Virus record (IMG/VR): IMGVR_UViG_3300025364_000003
Location: 124,001 to 188,000 of that record
Origin: a virus
Length of the DNA: 64,000 nt
Direction: 5' to 3' (one strand)
Shown here in pieces: positions 55,386 to 64,000 of the stretch. The position numbers and the translations under genes were made by a program. The notes beneath the pieces were generated by a model. That model worked only from the letters and a program-made list of their open reading frames with translations. It was not told the origin of the DNA and did no database searches. How positions within the stretch are numbered: position 1 is the first letter of the stretch; each line of letters begins with the position of its first letter.

Positions 55386-58300
55386 ATGGTTAGCCAAATT
55401 TTTAACTTTCCAGGCTTCTTCGATAGAGAAATCGATCTAACAGCCCAGATTCAGGAGCCAGTAGGCGTTCCAGCTGGTGTAATTGGTGGTGCCGAACGTG
55501 GTCCGGCATTCGTCCCATTCACTGTTGGATCATTTGCTGATTTCCGAACTCGCTTCGGCGATCTAAATCCAAGATATGCTGCGCCATACGCAGTCGATAG
55601 ATTCCTGGAAAACAGGACAGCACTTACCTTCATCAGAATTCTTGGTGCGGGTGCCAATGAGACGTCAAGTGATATCGAGACAACTCGTTTGCAAGGAACA
55701 GTCAAAAATGCTGGATTCCGTCTAAGTGGAACTCTCAGTTCCGTTAACCCAGCTACTACTAATGGTGCTGTTCAATTCCTCGTCGCTCGCCACGTTGTTA
55801 CTGCTTCAGAAGCACTCGGAATGCCGATGTTTTCTGACAATAATTCACTTCTTACCTCGGGTTCGAACGACGAGGTTTACCTTACTCGTGGTGTTATTTT
55901 CGCTGCGTCAGGTACTCGAATTCAAATTCTAAATGGAGATGACAGCAACGAGCAGTACAGCAGCTTTGTTGATGACGTTGCAACTGTAAACTCTGCAAGC
56001 AGAGAATTCAAAATTGTTATTTCTTCATCGGCTGGTGCGTCGTTTGGCAATGACGACGGATTCCCTGGCGTTAGAATTCTAACCGCTTCTCTGAATCCAA
56101 GTTCTGATAACTACTTTGCCAAGCTGATGAATACTGATCCAGAAAGGTTCAGCGACGAAAAACATGTGGTCTATGCTGATTATGCAGTCGATGCCGAACT
56201 CGCAAATGTTGGCACTGGAAGCGGCGATGTTGCTATTGCAAGCGGTAGCATTAACACTTCTTCTACTTCTGGCAACACCTCTCTTCCATTCCTAGAGGCG
56301 TTCGGTCGTTTTGACACCAGATTCACAACTCCAAAAACACCTTGGTTTATCTCGCAACCATATGGCAAAACTGAGTATGACCTCTTTTACATTGAAGCTG
56401 TTGATGATGGCGCATACGCAAATCAGCGTTTCAAGATTTCTATCACCAATCTTCTCAAGTCTTCAAATGTTCGTGATAAACACGGAACTTTCACACTTGT
56501 TGTAAGAACATTTGATGATACAGATGCCGAACCACAGATTCTTGAGCAGTTCAACAACCTTTCTCTTGATCCGGATTCGGACAACTACATTGCTAAGGTT
56601 ATTGGAGATAAGCGTGCTCGCTTCAACTTTGACGCTGAAGCTGAAGAAGATCGTCGCCTTCTCACCACTGGCAAGTTTGAAAACAGAAGCCGATACATTC
56701 GAGTATTTGTTTCTGACCAGGTAGCACAAAAGAAGATTCCTGAAGATGCTGTTCCATTCGGCTTCCGAGGAACTGCTCCATTGAGCACCAACTCACTTCT
56801 TTCTGATACTGCTGGGTCGGCGGCCCTAGCAAGACTTGCTTTGTCGGGTGCAACTGATCCACGTCTTGCGTGGTCTATAGTACCTCCTCTTCCATACCGT
56901 TATAAGGTAACAAGAGGAAATGCAGCAACCAATCCGGGTTTCGAAGGTGCTCCAGGAGCAACCGAATTAACTGATGCACGTTATTTTTGGGGGGTCAAGA
57001 CTTCTAGAAACACCAACGCACTGAATCCAAACATTGTCAATCTTCCAAACCAGTTGGTCAACAGCTACACTAAGTTTGCAGGTATTGAAAAACTTGATGT
57101 ACTTGTTACAGGTTCAGCTAAAGATGATTTCAACAACAATAAGTTTACGCTTGCTCGTGTTGCGCTAGGAAATGCATCACTCAATGATGTTACATCATCA
57201 GCCGCAATCCACATGAAAGAAGCTGCTTATCTTCGTAACAGAACGCCAGATGGGTTCGAATACAAGATAACTGATGAAATTTCTGGTCTGGATAGAATTA
57301 CATTTGCCACCCTTTACCAAAAGGGCACGTCTGCTGCCGACTTCAACAAGTTCACCAACTTTGCAAAGTTTACCTCTATTCTATATGGTGGTTTCGATGG
57401 CGTCAACATTCTTGATAAGAATGCAGCTACATTTAATGACCGTTCCACTTCAACAGAAACTGCTGGAAGCGAGGTTGGAAATGCAGCATCTACTTTCACT
57501 TCACCTGGACTTAACGAGAACGTAAACGGATTTGGTACTTCAAACCAGACTGTTTTCGCTTATCGAAGAGCTTCAGAGATTATCACTGATGCAATCGCAT
57601 CTAACATCAATCTGCTTACTATTCCAGGTCAGCGTGATCCGTTGGTCACAGACTTTGCTGCTGATGAAGTTCGTGACTTTGGTCTTGCTTTCTATGCCAT
57701 GGATTTACCAGCATATGACTCTGATGGTAACAGAATTTGGGACAATCAAACTTCAAGATTTATCGACATCGAACAGACTGCAAATAACTTTGAGCAGCGT
57801 GCTCTTGACAATGAGTTTGCAGGTGCTTACTTCCCAGATTTCGTACTTGAGGATGATGTAAACAGGCGCAGAGTAACCGTTCCAGCTTCTGTTGGAGCAC
57901 TTGCAGCACTTGGATTCAATGACCGTGTTGCTTATCCTTGGTTCGCACCAGCAGGCTTCAACAGAGCAGCTCTTGATTTTGTACAGCTTACAAAGACAAG
58001 AATTAAGCAACCAGAACGTGAACGTCTTTTTGACATTCACATTAACCCAATCGTCAAATTCCCTGGCGAATCTGGTTTCGTAATCTTCGCACAAAACACG
58101 CTTGAACAAGCCGAGTCTGCGCTCGGCAGTATCAATGTTGTTCGAATGTTGAATGAACTCAAGCGCAGGATAATCGAGATTGGCAACCGAGCAATCTTCG
58201 AACAGATTACTCCGGAAATTTACACTGAACTTGATAGGAGATTCCGCAGCGTTCTTAACCTCATTTCGGCTCGTGCTGGTATTGAGAGATTTGATGTCAT

Positions 58301-58445
58301 CGTTGATGGCAGAAACAATACAAACCTTGATCGTGAGAACAATAGAGTCAATGCTCGAATTGTGCTCGTTCCAACGAGGGCGGTTGAGTTCATTGCAATT
58401 GACTTCATCATTACTAGAAGCGGCGTGTCGTTCGATGCCGTATAA
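55386..58445 (+). CDS. tail sheath protein 1
   Basis: A 1,019-residue sheath protein (T4 gp18 is 659). The N-terminus 'GVPAGVIGGAERGPAFVPFT' with 'FADFRTRFGDLNPRY' and 'FLENRTALTFIRILGAG' is the classic sheath domain. The C-terminus 'DIHINPIVKFPGESGFVIFA', 'LEQAESALGSINVVRMLNEL' and 'VNARIVLVPTRAVEFIAIDF' is the conserved core that interlocks with the tube and neighbouring subunits. The middle holds large inserted domains. Contraction drives DNA ejection. GGAACGG precedes the ATG. Confidence 0.95.
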   Translation: MVSQIFNFPGFFDREIDLTAQIQEPVGVPAGVIGGAERGPAFVPFTVGSFADFRTRFGDLNPRYAAPYAVDRFLENRTALTFIRILGAGANETSSDIETTRLQGTVKNAGFRLSGTLSSVNPATTNGAVQFLVARHVVTASEALGMPMFSDNNSLLTSGSNDEVYLTRGVIFAASGTRIQILNGDDSNEQYSSFVDDVATVNSASREFKIVISSSAGASFGNDDGFPGVRILTASLNPSSDNYFAKLMNTDPERFSDEKHVVYADYAVDAELANVGTGSGDVAIASGSINTSSTSGNTSLPFLEAFGRFDTRFTTPKTPWFISQPYGKTEYDLFYIEAVDDGAYANQRFKISITNLLKSSNVRDKHGTFTLVVRTFDDTDAEPQILEQFNNLSLDPDSDNYIAKVIGDKRARFNFDAEAEEDRRLLTTGKFENRSRYIRVFVSDQVAQKKIPEDAVPFGFRGTAPLSTNSLLSDTAGSAALARLALSGATDPRLAWSIVPPLPYRYKVTRGNAATNPGFEGAPGATELTDARYFWGVKTSRNTNALNPNIVNLPNQLVNSYTKFAGIEKLDVLVTGSAKDDFNNNKFTLARVALGNASLNDVTSSAAIHMKEAAYLRNRTPDGFEYKITDEISGLDRITFATLYQKGTSAADFNKFTNFAKFTSILYGGFDGVNILDKNAATFNDRSTSTETAGSEVGNAASTFTSPGLNENVNGFGTSNQTVFAYRRASEIITDAIASNINLLTIPGQRDPLVTDFAADEVRDFGLAFYAMDLPAYDSDGNRIWDNQTSRFIDIEQTANNFEQRALDNEFAGAYFPDFVLEDDVNRRRVTVPASVGALAALGFNDRVAYPWFAPAGFNRAALDFVQLTKTRIKQPERERLFDIHINPIVKFPGESGFVIFAQNTLEQAESALGSINVVRMLNELKRRIIEIGNRAIFEQITPEIYTELDRRFRSVLNLISARAGIERFDVIVDGRNNTNLDRENNRVNARIVLVPTRAVEFIAIDFIITRSGVSFDAV

Positions 58446-58501
58446 GATGAGCCAGGCAAATAGTTACATAGAAAGATTAGTCGACTAATCGGAGAGAATT
58501 C

Positions 58502-61500
58502 ATGACTCAAATTAATTTCAAAAGTGCAGGAGTTTCAGCCAGGGTTATCAACCTTACTGGCCCAACAGCAATTCAACCTGTTGGAATCCCAGCTGGTGTG
58601 ATCGGAACTGCTGTAAAGGGACCTGCATTTGTTCCTGTAACTTTTGCAACAACGCAGGACTTTACGGTTGTATTCGGACTTCCAGAAGACAACAAGGCAA
58701 ATGGACCACTTGCTGTGGGCGAGTGGCTTCGTAATAGACAAGCAGCAACTTACCTTAGGGTTCTTGGTGCTGGTCAAGCCAAGAGAAGAGAACAATCTGG
58801 AGAGAATCAGGGTAAAGTTCAGGGTGCAGGTTTTGTTGTTGGTGACGAACAGCCACAAGCTGGTGGAGCATTGGATAACAACATGTACGCCAATGAAGGG
58901 GGACCTCTAGGGCGTTTGTATTTCCTAAACACCTTTATGTCAGAAGCAAACGGTTCGGGTTTTCTTACTGACGCTGGTCTCCCTGGTGAGGGAACGCCAA
59001 TCGTTAGGGCAGTTCTTTTAGCTGCTTCCGGTGTTATCATCACCCTTTCTTCGTCACTTTCTGCATCGACAATGGTTCCAGGAGCAGCTCCAGCGTCAAA
59101 CCTTGTTGCCACAGAAGAAAATAAGAGCGGTTCATTCCTAGGCTCCGTCAACCTCTCCGGCGGCAGACAGGAATTTGTGATGTTCTTGAATGGTCACAAG
59201 GGAACTGATCCTCTATTTCCCAATGTCATTACTGCATCTTTTGATGTTGACGCACCAAATTACCTTGGCAGTGCCCTTAACACCGATCCTTTCAACCTTG
59301 AAAAGGCAGGTTACTTGCTTTATGCCGATTACTCGGTTCATCCAAACCTTGCAACCGTTACTGGTTCTTCTGTGGTCGATACCACTACTGATGAAGTTGT
59401 AGGTGGAGGTTTGGCAGCTGGATTTGAACCAATCGCATTCTTGGCAACTGGTTCATTGTCTCGAAACTCCGGCTCAACCGTAGTACCAAGTTATGAAAAC
59501 TGGGAAGATAGATACACTACGCCAAAATCACCTTGGATTGTTTCACAGAGGCTTGGCGGCAAGCCAAGAAATCTCTTCAGAATTCATCTTTTGGATGACG
59601 GTGCTTGGGGCAACGATCAGGTCAAATGGTCTGTTGAAAACATTGTTCCGGCAATCAATGATGTAAACCCTTATGGAACTTTCGACCTTCTCATCCGTCG
59701 TTTCAACGACATCGATAAGAAACGTGAGGCAACTGAGGCTTGGAGAGGGCTTTCACTCAATCCAAGCTCCGACAATTACATTGCTAGAGTGATTGGTGAC
59801 CTCAACACCTTCTACAACTTTGATGCTGCCGAAGGTAACCAGAAGATTCAAACTACTGGCGAGTATCCAAACCAGTCCAAGGTTATCAGAGTAGAAGTCT
59901 CGCCAGACGTTGAAAACGTTGAGTTGGATGCTTCGGCTCTTCCGCTTGGTTTCAGAGGAATTCCACACTTGGTAACCTCGGGAACTGCACCATTGGCTCC
60001 ATTAGGCGAAGCACTTGCAGACAGCGTTCTTATTACTGGCTCTTCTGATCCAGCTCACAATGTCGTACAGATGCCAGTTCAGTTCCGCAGAAGCCTTAAC
60101 CTTGGTTCGGTTACCAGCCGTCGTGTAGACAAGGGCCTCTATTGGGGTATTCAGTTTACTCGTCAGCTTTCAGTTGAAGAGCCAAACTCAACAACCGAGC
60201 CAGAAAGAACTATTGCCAACTTCACCAAGTTCTTCCCTAAGCATCAGACTGATTGGTTGAATGTTGTCGTCAGCGACAATGAAGGAGTGGCAGATGCGGC
60301 AGAAACCGGTATTCTTGATGCGGATAGGTTCAATAACAACCTATTCTCTCTTGAGAACATCAGGATCGTAAGAGATCCGATCACGAATCTTGCTGACACT
60401 ACCCAGCTTGTAAGTTGGAGTTATGTAAGAGCCGGAAACGTAGCTACCTCTGGTTCGGTTAGAGCATTGACAGCTGACGATTTGTCGGATTCATCTGTAA
60501 GGCAGGTTGCTAAGTTCAGCGGAATTATCCAGGGCGGATTTGATGGTGTTAGAATCTTTGATGAAGACACTGCCAATCTTACCAACCTCGCAATTATCGA
60601 AGAAATGGACAACACAAACAGGGGAGTGTCGAATGGTCCTACCGTAAAGGCTTATGATACCGCTTTGGATATCATTGCCGACGACACCGAAACTGATATC
60701 CAACTTCTTACCATCCCAGGAATTAGACATCCACAGATCACCGATGACGCTCTACAGCTTATCGAGGAAAGATTTGATGCAATGTACATCATGGATCTTC
60801 CAGAGTATGACACCACAAATCAACTCGTTACTGCTTCCTCACAGGATTTGAGCGTTAGATTTACCGCAAATCAGCACCGTGATCGAGGTTTGAACACTTC
60901 CTTCGGAGCAGCTTACTTCCCAGACGTAATCTTGAGGGATACACTCAACAACACTATTCGACAGGTTCCGCCTTCGGTTGCTGTTCTTGGTGCATTCGGT
61001 CTCAATGATGCAGTCGGATTCCCATGGTTTGCCCCAGCAGGTTTTGCACGTGGCGCCCTACAGACAACTGAAGAATCTACGCTTCCATTGTCCCGTGACA
61101 ACATGGATGCGCTTCAAGATGTCAAGATTAACCCACTTGTATCCTTTGCAGGATCGGATGGTGTTGTAGTCTGGGGTCAGCGTACTCTACTTGCTCGTGA
61201 TTCTGCACTTGAGAGAGTCAATGTACGTAGACTTCTCATTCAACTTAGAAGAGATGTTCGCCGTGTTGCTCGACGCTTCGTATTCGAACCTGGTCGTGCC
61301 GAAACGCTTGCAAGATTTTCTCAGTTGGTAAACCCAATCTTGAAGAGGGTGCAGGACCAGAGAGGCGTGGAGAGATTCCTTGTAAGAATTGACACCACAA
61401 CTACTACACAAGCCGACATTGAAAACAGAACGGTTCGTGGAAAGATTTTCCTTGTTCCAACCAGAACTTTGGAATTCTTGTCCATCGACTTCGTCGTTAC

Positions 61501-61531
61501 CAATCAAGGCAATTTCGTTTCATCGCAATAA
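58502..61531 (+). CDS. tail sheath protein 2 (paralogue)
   Basis: A 1,009-residue sheath protein with the same architecture: 'GIPAGVIGTAVKGPAFVPVT', 'WLRNRQAATYLRVLGAGQA', 'YFPDVILRDTLNN', 'DVKINPLVSFAGSDGVVVWG' and 'VRGKIFLVPTRTLEFLSIDF'. It diverges from paralogue 1 mainly in the middle. Two complete, intact sheath genes suggest a mixed sheath or alternative segments rather than a failed duplication. GGAGAG precedes the ATG. Confidence 0.95.
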   Translation: MTQINFKSAGVSARVINLTGPTAIQPVGIPAGVIGTAVKGPAFVPVTFATTQDFTVVFGLPEDNKANGPLAVGEWLRNRQAATYLRVLGAGQAKRREQSGENQGKVQGAGFVVGDEQPQAGGALDNNMYANEGGPLGRLYFLNTFMSEANGSGFLTDAGLPGEGTPIVRAVLLAASGVIITLSSSLSASTMVPGAAPASNLVATEENKSGSFLGSVNLSGGRQEFVMFLNGHKGTDPLFPNVITASFDVDAPNYLGSALNTDPFNLEKAGYLLYADYSVHPNLATVTGSSVVDTTTDEVVGGGLAAGFEPIAFLATGSLSRNSGSTVVPSYENWEDRYTTPKSPWIVSQRLGGKPRNLFRIHLLDDGAWGNDQVKWSVENIVPAINDVNPYGTFDLLIRRFNDIDKKREATEAWRGLSLNPSSDNYIARVIGDLNTFYNFDAAEGNQKIQTTGEYPNQSKVIRVEVSPDVENVELDASALPLGFRGIPHLVTSGTAPLAPLGEALADSVLITGSSDPAHNVVQMPVQFRRSLNLGSVTSRRVDKGLYWGIQFTRQLSVEEPNSTTEPERTIANFTKFFPKHQTDWLNVVVSDNEGVADAAETGILDADRFNNNLFSLENIRIVRDPITNLADTTQLVSWSYVRAGNVATSGSVRALTADDLSDSSVRQVAKFSGIIQGGFDGVRIFDEDTANLTNLAIIEEMDNTNRGVSNGPTVKAYDTALDIIADDTETDIQLLTIPGIRHPQITDDALQLIEERFDAMYIMDLPEYDTTNQLVTASSQDLSVRFTANQHRDRGLNTSFGAAYFPDVILRDTLNNTIRQVPPSVAVLGAFGLNDAVGFPWFAPAGFARGALQTTEESTLPLSRDNMDALQDVKINPLVSFAGSDGVVVWGQRTLLARDSALERVNVRRLLIQLRRDVRRVARRFVFEPGRAETLARFSQLVNPILKRVQDQRGVERFLVRIDTTTTTQADIENRTVRGKIFLVPTRTLEFLSIDFVVTNQGNFVSSQ

Positions 61532-61563
61532 TTGAATAAATTTCCCCATAAGAGAGGTAAATA

Positions 61564-61668
61564 ATGAAGGGTCTACTCCACCGTTTAATAAATCTTTTCA
61601 ACTCTGAGCACTGTTGCTGCTGTTGTGGCTGCTGTCAGTGCCGGAACTGCAAGGGCAGCTGTAAGTGA
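61564..61668 (+). CDS. cysteine-rich mini-protein, 34 aa
   Basis: ATG at 61564, preceded by AGAGAGG, to TGA at 61666-61668. The product is MKGLLHRLINLFNSEH followed by 18 residues with ten cysteines, including five consecutive Cys and the pattern C-x-C-x-x-C-x-x-x-C. The stop overlaps the GTG of the next gene (GTGA). An amphipathic N-terminal helix plus a metal-binding or disulphide-rich tail is a plausible form. Its place straight after the sheath genes suggests a virion or assembly role. No family known to me. Confidence 0.7.
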   Translation: MKGLLHRLINLFNSEHCCCCCGCCQCRNCKGSCK

Positions 61669-62519
61669 ATGATAGGGATAGAATACAAGGATTCATTTCT
61701 GACTTAGTCAAAGAAGAATTGACTGAGGTATCTCCTGTATTTTATCCCACAATCAAAAAGGGAATAGAAGCTGGCCGTGAGGCTTCTCGTAGACAGGCTT
61801 CGGCCTACAGGGGAAGGCACGGCCAAACCTTTTCTGATGAACTTGCTCAAATACGTCGAGATTCCAAGCGTAAAAGGGATAGGCATCATAAGATGCTGTC
61901 GCTTTCCAAGCATCTGAAAAAAGTTTTCGGAAATAATGCATATGGTGGCTCTGCACTTGCCACTGTAGAAATTTCTAACGATTTTAAAGCTGATGTTAAA
62001 GCTGAATTTGTGAGCGTTATGGGAATTGATAATGTCAAGTTTGTAGTTTCAATAAAGAAAAACGGCAAAGAAATTCTTACCAAAGAATTTGTTGCTGGAT
62101 TAGGGGCAAAACAAAGTGTAGCAAGGTTCATTAAGAAATTTCAGGAAAAATTGCAAGAGGATGCAGCAATGAAGGTTACGAAAGCGCAACTAAAAGAAAT
62201 GGTCCGCAAGATCATTAGAAAAAAATTAACAGAAATGGATCTTGGTGAAAAAAGTCGATCTACTACAGGGGCTGACAGGAGGATGAGTCCATCTCAACTT
62301 GAAAAGCATCTTGAAAAGGAAAGAGAAAGATCAAAACAAGCCAAGGTTGTTAAAAAACGACAAGCAATGAAGCAATCGGCTCGTGGTATGGAATTAGAGA
62401 GTCGCATAGATATTGATCGAGATGTTGACAACGAAGAAATGGTTGATGCTAAAGAAGAAGAATATCTTACCAAGCTCGAAAAGTTAATTCTTCAAAGTGA
62501 AAAGGAAGGGCTTTGCTAA
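61665..62519 (+). CDS. doubly tagged protein, 284 aa
   Basis: GTG start overlapping the mini-protein's stop. The first tag is N-terminal (IQGFISDLVKEELTE|VS). A second complete tag, with its own Met, sits at about residues 169-189 (QLKEMVRKIIRKKLTE|MD). Between them lie a basic stretch and a small beta domain (FKADVKAEFVSVMGIDNVKF). After the second tag comes a charged helical tail. Either an internal start at the second Met yields a short form, or the protein is cut in two during head maturation. Confidence 0.75.
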   Translation: MNDRDRIQGFISDLVKEELTEVSPVFYPTIKKGIEAGREASRRQASAYRGRHGQTFSDELAQIRRDSKRKRDRHHKMLSLSKHLKKVFGNNAYGGSALATVEISNDFKADVKAEFVSVMGIDNVKFVVSIKKNGKEILTKEFVAGLGAKQSVARFIKKFQEKLQEDAAMKVTKAQLKEMVRKIIRKKLTEMDLGEKSRSTTGADRRMSPSQLEKHLEKERERSKQAKVVKKRQAMKQSARGMELESRIDIDRDVDNEEMVDAKEEEYLTKLEKLILQSEKEGLC

Positions 62520-62520
62520 A

Positions 62521-63078
62521 ATGACTACTATAAAACAAATAATTGAAGAAGCTGTCAAGGAAGCACTTGACCCAGTTGGGAAAACTGAAACGGGGAAAAA
62601 GGTAGGGGTCGGTCAAATTCGTGACATCGACAACGATGGTGATATTGATAGTTCTGATGCGTATCTTGCATATCGTCGAAAAAAAATTACACAGGCAATG
62701 AAAAAAGAAGATCGTGAACTCAATGAAAAAACAATGACTTGGGGTGATCTTCCATCGGAAGATGTTTTTGAAGATTTAATGGATGGCAAAGCTTTCAACA
62801 TGAAACTTCAGGGTGCCGACTCTCTTGCGTTTGAATATGCCATGACTCTATCTGATAATCCAGGAGCGGGAAGTACAGCATCTGCGGGCAGTCTTAGAGC
62901 TACCATAGAAGCCCTTATCAACGCTCCAGAGCCAGACGAACTTTCTGATGACCAATACGAAGAGGTTGAAAATGTTCTTGACGAATGGAACGACAGATAC
63001 GGGGATGTGAGCATTGAAGAAACTGCGTGGTCTTTGGCTTCTGGTATTATGGAAGTCCTTGGAATTGAATGGATTTGA
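62521..63078 (+). CDS. tagged protein with dockerin-like calcium motif
   Basis: A 185-residue protein from MTTIKQIIEEAVKEALDP (a degenerate tag lacking the final L-x-E). Residues 33-50 are 'IRDIDNDGDIDSSDAYLAY', a dockerin/EF-hand-type calcium loop (D-x-D-x-D-G-x-(I/V)-x-x-x-D). The C-terminal 110 residues are acidic and helical (LSDDQYEEVENVLDEWNDRY). Similar dockerin-tag combinations occur in marine phage proteins. Function unknown. Confidence 0.75.
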   Translation: MTTIKQIIEEAVKEALDPVGKTETGKKVGVGQIRDIDNDGDIDSSDAYLAYRRKKITQAMKKEDRELNEKTMTWGDLPSEDVFEDLMDGKAFNMKLQGADSLAFEYAMTLSDNPGAGSTASAGSLRATIEALINAPEPDELSDDQYEEVENVLDEWNDRYGDVSIEETAWSLASGIMEVLGIEWI

Positions 63079-63087
63079 TAGAGTAAA

Positions 63088-63582
63088 ATGCCAAAGAGTA
63101 AATATCCAAAAAGCGTACAAGATCTACCAGAAGACGACTACAGTCAGTGGACGGCAGTTTATCACAGTGCACGTGACGGGGGCGACAGCAAAGAAACCGC
63201 AGCAAAAAAAGCTTGGGGTGCTGTTAAGGAATCCGGCTTGCAAGAAAGTGGTGAAGATAATCCATGCTGGGATGGTTACGAAATGGTCGGTATGAAAACC
63301 CAAAACGGGAAAGAAGTACCTAACTGCGTTCCGAAAAATGAATCAAAAAAACCTGTACGTATTTCAAAAACGCAGCTTAAAGAAATGGTAAAGCGGGCCG
63401 TTAGAAATCAATTACAAGAGGCTTCCACTGTTCGAAAGCGTCAAATGATACTTGATCGGTTTAGAACCGAAGCAAACCTTTCAACTTATGAATTGCTAGA
63501 AGACGTCCTTGAATTCATTGATGAAAAGACTTGGCAGAAAGTATTGCAGGGCATTGGTAACAAATATGGTTATCGACTTTAA
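63088..63582 (+). CDS. ChaB-like protein with internal tag
   Basis: A 164-residue protein. Residues 7-50 follow the ChaB pattern ('SVQDLPEDDYSQWTAVYHSA', then 'ETAAKKAWGAVKE'). A small motif 'DNPCWDGYEMVGMKTQNG' and 'VPNCVP' follows, often seen in phage virion proteins. Then comes an excellent tag copy (TQLKEMVKRAVRNQLQE|AS) at about 92-108 and a helical C-terminal domain. If the prohead protease cuts after the tag, the protein becomes two pieces. Confidence 0.75.
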   Translation: MPKSKYPKSVQDLPEDDYSQWTAVYHSARDGGDSKETAAKKAWGAVKESGLQESGEDNPCWDGYEMVGMKTQNGKEVPNCVPKNESKKPVRISKTQLKEMVKRAVRNQLQEASTVRKRQMILDRFRTEANLSTYELLEDVLEFIDEKTWQKVLQGIGNKYGYRL

Positions 63583-63654: not shown

Positions 63655-64000
63655 ATGAAGCTTAATAGAACACAATTCAAGAAAATTTTAAAAGAGTGCA
63701 TCAGAGAATTAATAACAGAAGGTGCATTTGACAATGTAATCAAAGAAAATGTTCAACCAGTTGCTGCAACAGCTAGGGTTGCTCCAAATGATTTTGTAGG
63801 ACAGGTTACTAAAAATTCTACCACGGCGCAACCACCATTCTCTTCTGTTGGTCATATGACACCAAATGAAAGACTTAGGGAACTTTCTCGTATTGCAGCT
63901 ATGCAGACCGCTCAAGGTGACCCAAAACAAGCTGCAATGATGGAAAGTATTTTTGCAGACACGGCAATGACGACCCTACAATCGCAACTTGGAACAGAAA
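63655..64000 (+). CDS. tagged protein, partial (runs off the window)
   Basis: ATG at 63655 opens a frame that stays open to the window edge (115 codons). It begins MKLNRTQFKKILKECIREL then ITE|GA, a textbook [LI]-x-E|G cleavage site. The visible remainder is helical and Thr/Gln-rich (RELSRIAAMQTAQGDPKQAA). AACAGG upstream is a weak ribosome binding site. The C-terminus is not visible, so its function is not assignable. Confidence 0.8.
   Translation, partial: MKLNRTQFKKILKECIRELITEGAFDNVIKENVQPVAATARVAPNDFVGQVTKNSTTAQPPFSSVGHMTPNERLRELSRIAAMQTAQGDPKQAAMMESIFADTAMTTLQSQLGTE

Follow-up and report, generated by a model that had tools for sequence, protein, structure and literature searches.

Small metallothioneins of bacteria and fungi are very short proteins with about 30% cysteine, CC, CxC and CxxC spacings, a constant number of cysteines and exchange between cysteine and histidine, and the phage microprotein studied here is alike in all of these features. 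What sets it apart is an amphipathic helix conserved at the N-terminus, a five-cysteine run and the lack of any match in Pfam, NCBIfam or PDB, and metal binding is putative in its case; a run of five adjacent cysteines is unusual among the known metallothioneins. Near-adjacent cysteines also form a run in the cysteine string protein CSP-alpha/DNAJC5, for which PMC4447612 describes membrane targeting by palmitoylation in eukaryotes. The likeness is taken as an analogy only, and the microprotein differs by its size and by having no DnaJ domain. Palmitoylation of such cysteine strings is not known from bacteria. Precursors of Cys-rich RiPPs of the methanobactin/bufferin type share with the microprotein a leader-like helix followed by a Cys-rich C-terminus. 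The small accessory ("moron"-like) genes of phages are likewise tiny, have their own ribosome-binding site, occupy many gene junctions and are patchy among relatives, whereas the microprotein stands apart by an unusually rigid sequence across very diverse phages.

The gene lies in a stretch of 64,000 nucleotides (the window), which is part of a 206,528-bp IMG/VR virus record, with the following features:

55386 to 58445, + strand: tail sheath protein 1, 1019 aa (PHROG_23 tail sheath, E 9.3e-38)
58502 to 61531, + strand: tail sheath protein 2, 1009 aa (PHROG_23 tail sheath, E 1.3e-53)
61552 to 61558, + strand: ribosome-binding site GAGAGGT, its AGAGGT ending 5 bases before the microgene ATG
61564 to 61668, + strand: ten-cysteine microprotein gene of the HC5GCC family, 34 aa and stop
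61564 to 61608, + strand: predicted N-terminal amphipathic cationic helix, residues 1-15, MKxxLHRLxNLFNxx (from family consensus, AF2 and dN/dS)
61609 to 61665, + strand: His16 with the cysteine string HCCCCCGCC and the tail CxxCxGxC, residues 16-34
61665 to 62519, + strand: next ORF, 284 aa, GTG start, with a 4-base overlap with the microgene stop

The product, MKGLLHRLINLFNSEHCCCCCGCCQCRNCKGSCK (34 aa, 10 Cys), is read from the ATG at 61564 to the stop TGA at 61666-61668, and all ten cysteines fall within its last 18 residues (17-34). The initial annotation had placed here a 34-residue ORF with ten cysteines, an AGAGGT site and a GTGA overlap, and we find all of these as it described them. 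In the AF2 model residues 3-12 are predicted to be helical, at low confidence (pLDDT 64). No paralogue of the microgene was found in the same genome. The two adjoining sheath paralogues (55386-61531) are themselves very large (~1,010 aa), and their cultured relatives are only distant.

Cysteine makes up 29% of the microprotein, while every simulated ORF of 20-80 aa, obtained from 60 windows with the same dinucleotide make-up, reached at most 27%. The dN/dS of the helix, which was left unconstrained by the first search pattern, was ~0.17 (343 pairs, each 75% or more identical at the DNA level), and that of the Cys block was 0.02, the latter value being biased by the search pattern and the synonymous sites being near saturation. 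TGC and TGT interchange freely at every Cys codon while the cysteine itself is kept, and 68 of 78 family members have an RBS-like site in front of them, as compared with 7.4% of all ATGs. Since there is an identical copy in contig L006, a diverged in-frame orthologue in L001 and homologues on at least 84 contigs, the microgene is real beyond chance; a chance ORF is ruled out by the simulated windows, by the selection on the helix and by the frame and Cys count conserved across the family. With the frame preserved in relatives and changes that are mostly synonymous, this is a genuine, selected gene of large phages, usually present in a single copy. The earlier suggestion that it is translated is strongly supported by the conserved frame, the purifying selection and the RBS-like sites, and the missing or disrupted frame in close relatives, which had been named as grounds for giving it up, was not seen in the nearest of them, L006 and L001.

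L006 is identical to the window phage over the microgene region. In L001, whose sheath is 84% identical, the orthologue MKAFVHRLVNLFNSKHCCCCCGCCNCAKGCCK holds the same place 3' of the sheath gene, and over 26 codons it differs from the window gene by 11 synonymous (~15 sites) and 7 non-synonymous differences (~63 sites). Sheath relatives at ~71% identity show no trace of the microgene at that place, which indicates that it was gained or lost whole and not through a decaying frame. It is also missing from 17 sheath-relative contigs, which may be incomplete, so these absences are soft. A position 3' of the sheath is found only in the window phage, in the identical L006 and in L001; the description of the gene as coming after the sheath genes is therefore right for the window, where it lies 3' of the second of two such genes, but does not carry over to the family. 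In the same way, the GTGA overlap with the next start is present here but not conserved, as in L001 the ATG of the next gene lies a few bases past the microgene stop. As for that next gene, residues 169-281 of the window ORF (61665-62519) match a short protein 3' of the L001 microgene (L001:9135-9485); the window ORF carries an extra N-terminal part of ~168 residues, while L001 has only the C-terminal ~115 residues, as a separate gene. Compared in this way, the two sequences appear to differ by a fusion or deletion on the microgene's 3' side.

The contigs encoding homologues (at least 84 in IMG/VR) are up to 289 kb long, and the family members have ~31-37 residues, rarely up to 49, with the consensus MKxxLHRLxNLFNxxHCCCCCGCCxCxxCxGxC. 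In the first scan of IMG/VR the pattern CAY(TGY)5GGN(TGY)2 was used, in which the Cys core is fixed, and at least 80 stretches were obtained. All but one of the matches listed hold a tiny ORF with the N-terminus MKxxLHRLxNLFNxx; as this consensus lies outside the pattern and yet occurs in almost every match, it was counted in favour of a family. In the second scan, meant to remove the Cys-core bias, the pattern required the helix but, of the cysteines, no more than the first two; it gave 63 loci, all of them family members and 60 with the exact HC5GCC (one of the 60, L185, ends mid-gene at the locus edge and was completed by L166), the variants being HCCCCGTC in L177, HCCCCCDCC in L180 and HCCCCCYCC in L184. 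Of these exact-core members, 59 of 60 had already been found by the first scan, and the exact-core family is therefore probably little larger in this collection. Of the 62 complete genes, 59 encode exactly ten cysteines, two encode nine and one eleven, and the tail spacing varies (CxxCxGxC, CxxGCC, CCC) at the constant ten. One cysteine is replaced by histidine in L111. Conservation is highest in the Cys core, the histidine before the string is invariant, and H6, L8, N10 and F12 of the helix are nearly so; the helix is amphipathic, with a mean moment of 0.60 and a mean net charge of ~+2.6. A profile search added the member L272, HCCCCCATCNCECCACC. In 20 large contigs there was one family match per contig, and one contig had a second, loose-pattern match.

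The mechanism which we consider the best, with roughly even confidence, is a thiolate cluster for Zn/Cu/Fe-S carried by a peptide whose amphipathic helix docks on a membrane or a partner. Since the number of cysteines is constant while their spacing varies, and since L111 has histidine in place of one of them, putative metal ligands fit better than a fixed disulphide fold, and the invariant His before the string was counted in the same direction. In the reducing cytoplasm of the host, the ten thiols, His16 and perhaps His6 would wrap Zn(II), Cu(I) or Fe-S in a small thiolate cluster, and the helix would dock the peptide on the membrane or on a specific partner protein. During infection the peptide would then buffer or carry metal at its target site, or be an effector that depends on metal, in a mode likened to a metallothionein to which a targeting helix has been fused. 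The composition is that of a metallothionein, with 10 of 34 residues being Cys and with a Cys part that is free of aromatic residues in nearly all members (the exceptions are Phe in L117/L143 and Tyr in L184), although the sequence belongs to no metallothionein family in Pfam (0 matches to the microprotein), NCBIfam (0 of 36 family members matched) or PDB (0 matches in a profile search). Given how specific H6, L8, N10 and F12 are, the helix may have a protein, and not lipid, as its docking site; with His6, Asn10 and Phe12 conserved, a protein target could be equally possible, the cysteines then having another role.

The near-invariance of H6, L8, N10 and F12 exceeds the needs of a generic membrane anchor, and it would also suit a peptide guided by its helix to inhibit or modulate a host protein or a process at the membrane, in takeover or superinfection, with the Cys cluster as a compact, possibly zinc-stabilised fold. 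The patchy accessory distribution of the microgene and the other small genes that it adjoins point the same way, but the most conserved part is the Cys core and not the helix, and we regard such a modulator as unlikely. Within the metal-binding reading, we tentatively suggest that these are virus-specific, helix-targeted metal or Fe-S carriers, by which phages might seize, store or deliver host metal and whose single-gene cassette moves between phages; in the delivery variant of this equally tentative suggestion, the recipient of the metal during infection would be a specific enzyme of the phage or the host.

Genes for Fe-S and cysteine metabolism are found near some members: IscU lies 39 bp upstream of the microgene in L096, IscA (an A-type Fe-S carrier, IscA/ErpA-like) and IscU lie 1.5-2.5 kb away in L114 and L138, IscU, IscA and the cysteine synthase CysK stand close together near it in L131, and in L146 thioredoxin is upstream and CysK directly downstream. 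Such genes within ~2.5 kb in five loci, which may be related phages, are a hint of a metal role and suggestive only. Over whole contigs, IscU, IscA and CysK are not clearly commoner in carriers than in non-carriers, and genome-wide co-occurrence was therefore set aside as a signal. That marine phages bear iscU is already known (PMC9038755).

CysK directly downstream in L146, together with the runs of Cys codons and the position of a short ORF just 5' of other genes, would also be expected of a Cys-sensing leader peptide (attenuator) and not a working protein. Such a leader is very improbable, because the helix is conserved under purifying selection and the genes downstream fall into 37 clusters without relation to one another, often starting within a few bases; some members moreover have extra C-terminal tails. 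Upstream, the immediate neighbours fall into 38 clusters, and this lack of a constant neighbour enzyme bears on the RiPP comparison as well. A precursor with a leader helix and an enzymatically modified Cys-rich core would account for the leader/core-like layout, the short length and the variable core end, but the MNIO maturase (PF05114) was found in 0 and radical SAM (PF04055) in 2 of the 19 carrier phage contigs covered by the count, and neither is present in the genome of the window, which leaves a RiPP precursor a highly doubtful proposition.

A DnaG-like primase is directly upstream of the microgene in 12 loci, and an M50 (site-2-protease-like) membrane metalloprotease in L092, L101, L118, L151 and L152 (the L124 relative matches PF02163, E 2e-54). 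A tmRNA lies just downstream in L113, L121, L131 and L137 (ARAGORN), and in L103 and L180 one was recognised by its 5' sequence only; the phage tmRNA tags near the microgene include ANDNVANYALAA. The terminase region is also among the neighbours, with some members preceding terminase. As a clade marker the microgene was rejected, since carriers and non-carriers intermingle in the terminase tree. Of the 19 terminase relatives covered (contigs which may be incomplete), no more than 2 carry it, and the record of the window itself holds no detected relative of the carrier terminase. With its many addresses, the mixed terminase tree and the 2 of 19 relatives, the microgene behaves as an accessory cassette whose sequence is kept while its address changes.

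Five loci (L108, L129, L133/L150 and L140; four distinct sequences) carry an AT-hook-like C-terminal tail RRRGRPRK, and the RGRP motif is absent from the other neighbour ORFs of at least 40 aa in the carrier loci. The tail suggests, on the strength of its motif, DNA association for these tailed versions, and this and the 12 members directly 3' of the primase would fit a DNA-associated protein whose helix or Cys fold acts on replication or recombination complexes; most members, however, have no such tail, and the neighbours vary, so that we hold this to be quite unlikely for the family.

The gene that follows the microgene starts with MK(I/L)TKxQLxxIIKEE in 34 of 70 cases (strict pattern), as compared with a background of 12%, and about a dozen further downstream genes start with MKxLxENWxxYxxE. 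In the window, the ORFs 61665-62519, 62521-63078, 63088-63582 and 63655-64000 share the helix motif MK(I/L)TKxQLxxIIKEEL or MKxLxENWxxYxxE. Such motifs are N-terminal or internal in many small proteins of these phages and end in I/L-x-E. The prohead-protease sites of T4 are L/I-X-E (PMC9026906). The small proteins resemble the propeptides of the T4 prohead protease or capsid-targeting peptides, an analogy that would make them candidates for internal proteins packaged in the head.

That many members precede genes with such N-terminal I-x-E motifs, and that the gene is in the tail region 3' of the sheath genes in the window phage and L001, would be in line with a disulphide-bonded structural or virion peptide, the plug proposed by the initial annotation. 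The bacterial cytoplasm is reducing, which counts against it, as do the Cys-to-His exchange, the members with 9 or 11 cysteines and the sheath-adjacent position that is not kept in the family. No conserved place in a tail module was found, most relatives carrying the gene elsewhere (after primase, after the M50 protease, before tmRNA, before terminase); the plug is left unsupported, and a virion peptide of this kind is improbable.

The family of phage microproteins is apparently previously undescribed. In PHROGs there was no real match, the only one being phrog_13373, a 123-position profile with E 0.49 or worse, which we judged to be chance. Cultured phages and plasmids gave no tblastn match, which is a weak negative due to BLAST low-complexity masking, and the four nearest phage records were therefore searched with the family profile too. 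A collection of genomes from 84,980 species gave six matches, of which only L166 is a family member; being itself a phage contig (101,404 bp), it does not make the microgene a cellular one. The open-licence literature gave nothing relevant on the peptide motif or on phage metallothioneins. The microgene is strongly conserved, and the large phages that carry it are mostly uncultured; its absence from the family libraries searched is probably due to its length of only 31-37 codons. Should the peptide prove to bind metal, it would give direct access to the way in which phages control the zinc, copper, iron or redox state of the host, a question still open above all for ocean viruses. The motif, LHRLxNLFN and then HC5GCC, is simple enough to be sought in metaproteomes and newly isolated phages.

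The nearest cultured phages are Flavobacterium phage immuto (Baltic Sea) and Microcystis phage Mel-JY01, with a terminase 43% identical to that of a carrier, and we infer a marine or ocean origin partly from them. Besides its intact microgene, L113 has a second copy, partial and degenerate in appearance (MKKILNKKHCCCCCGCCKWPIP...), ~140 bases away.
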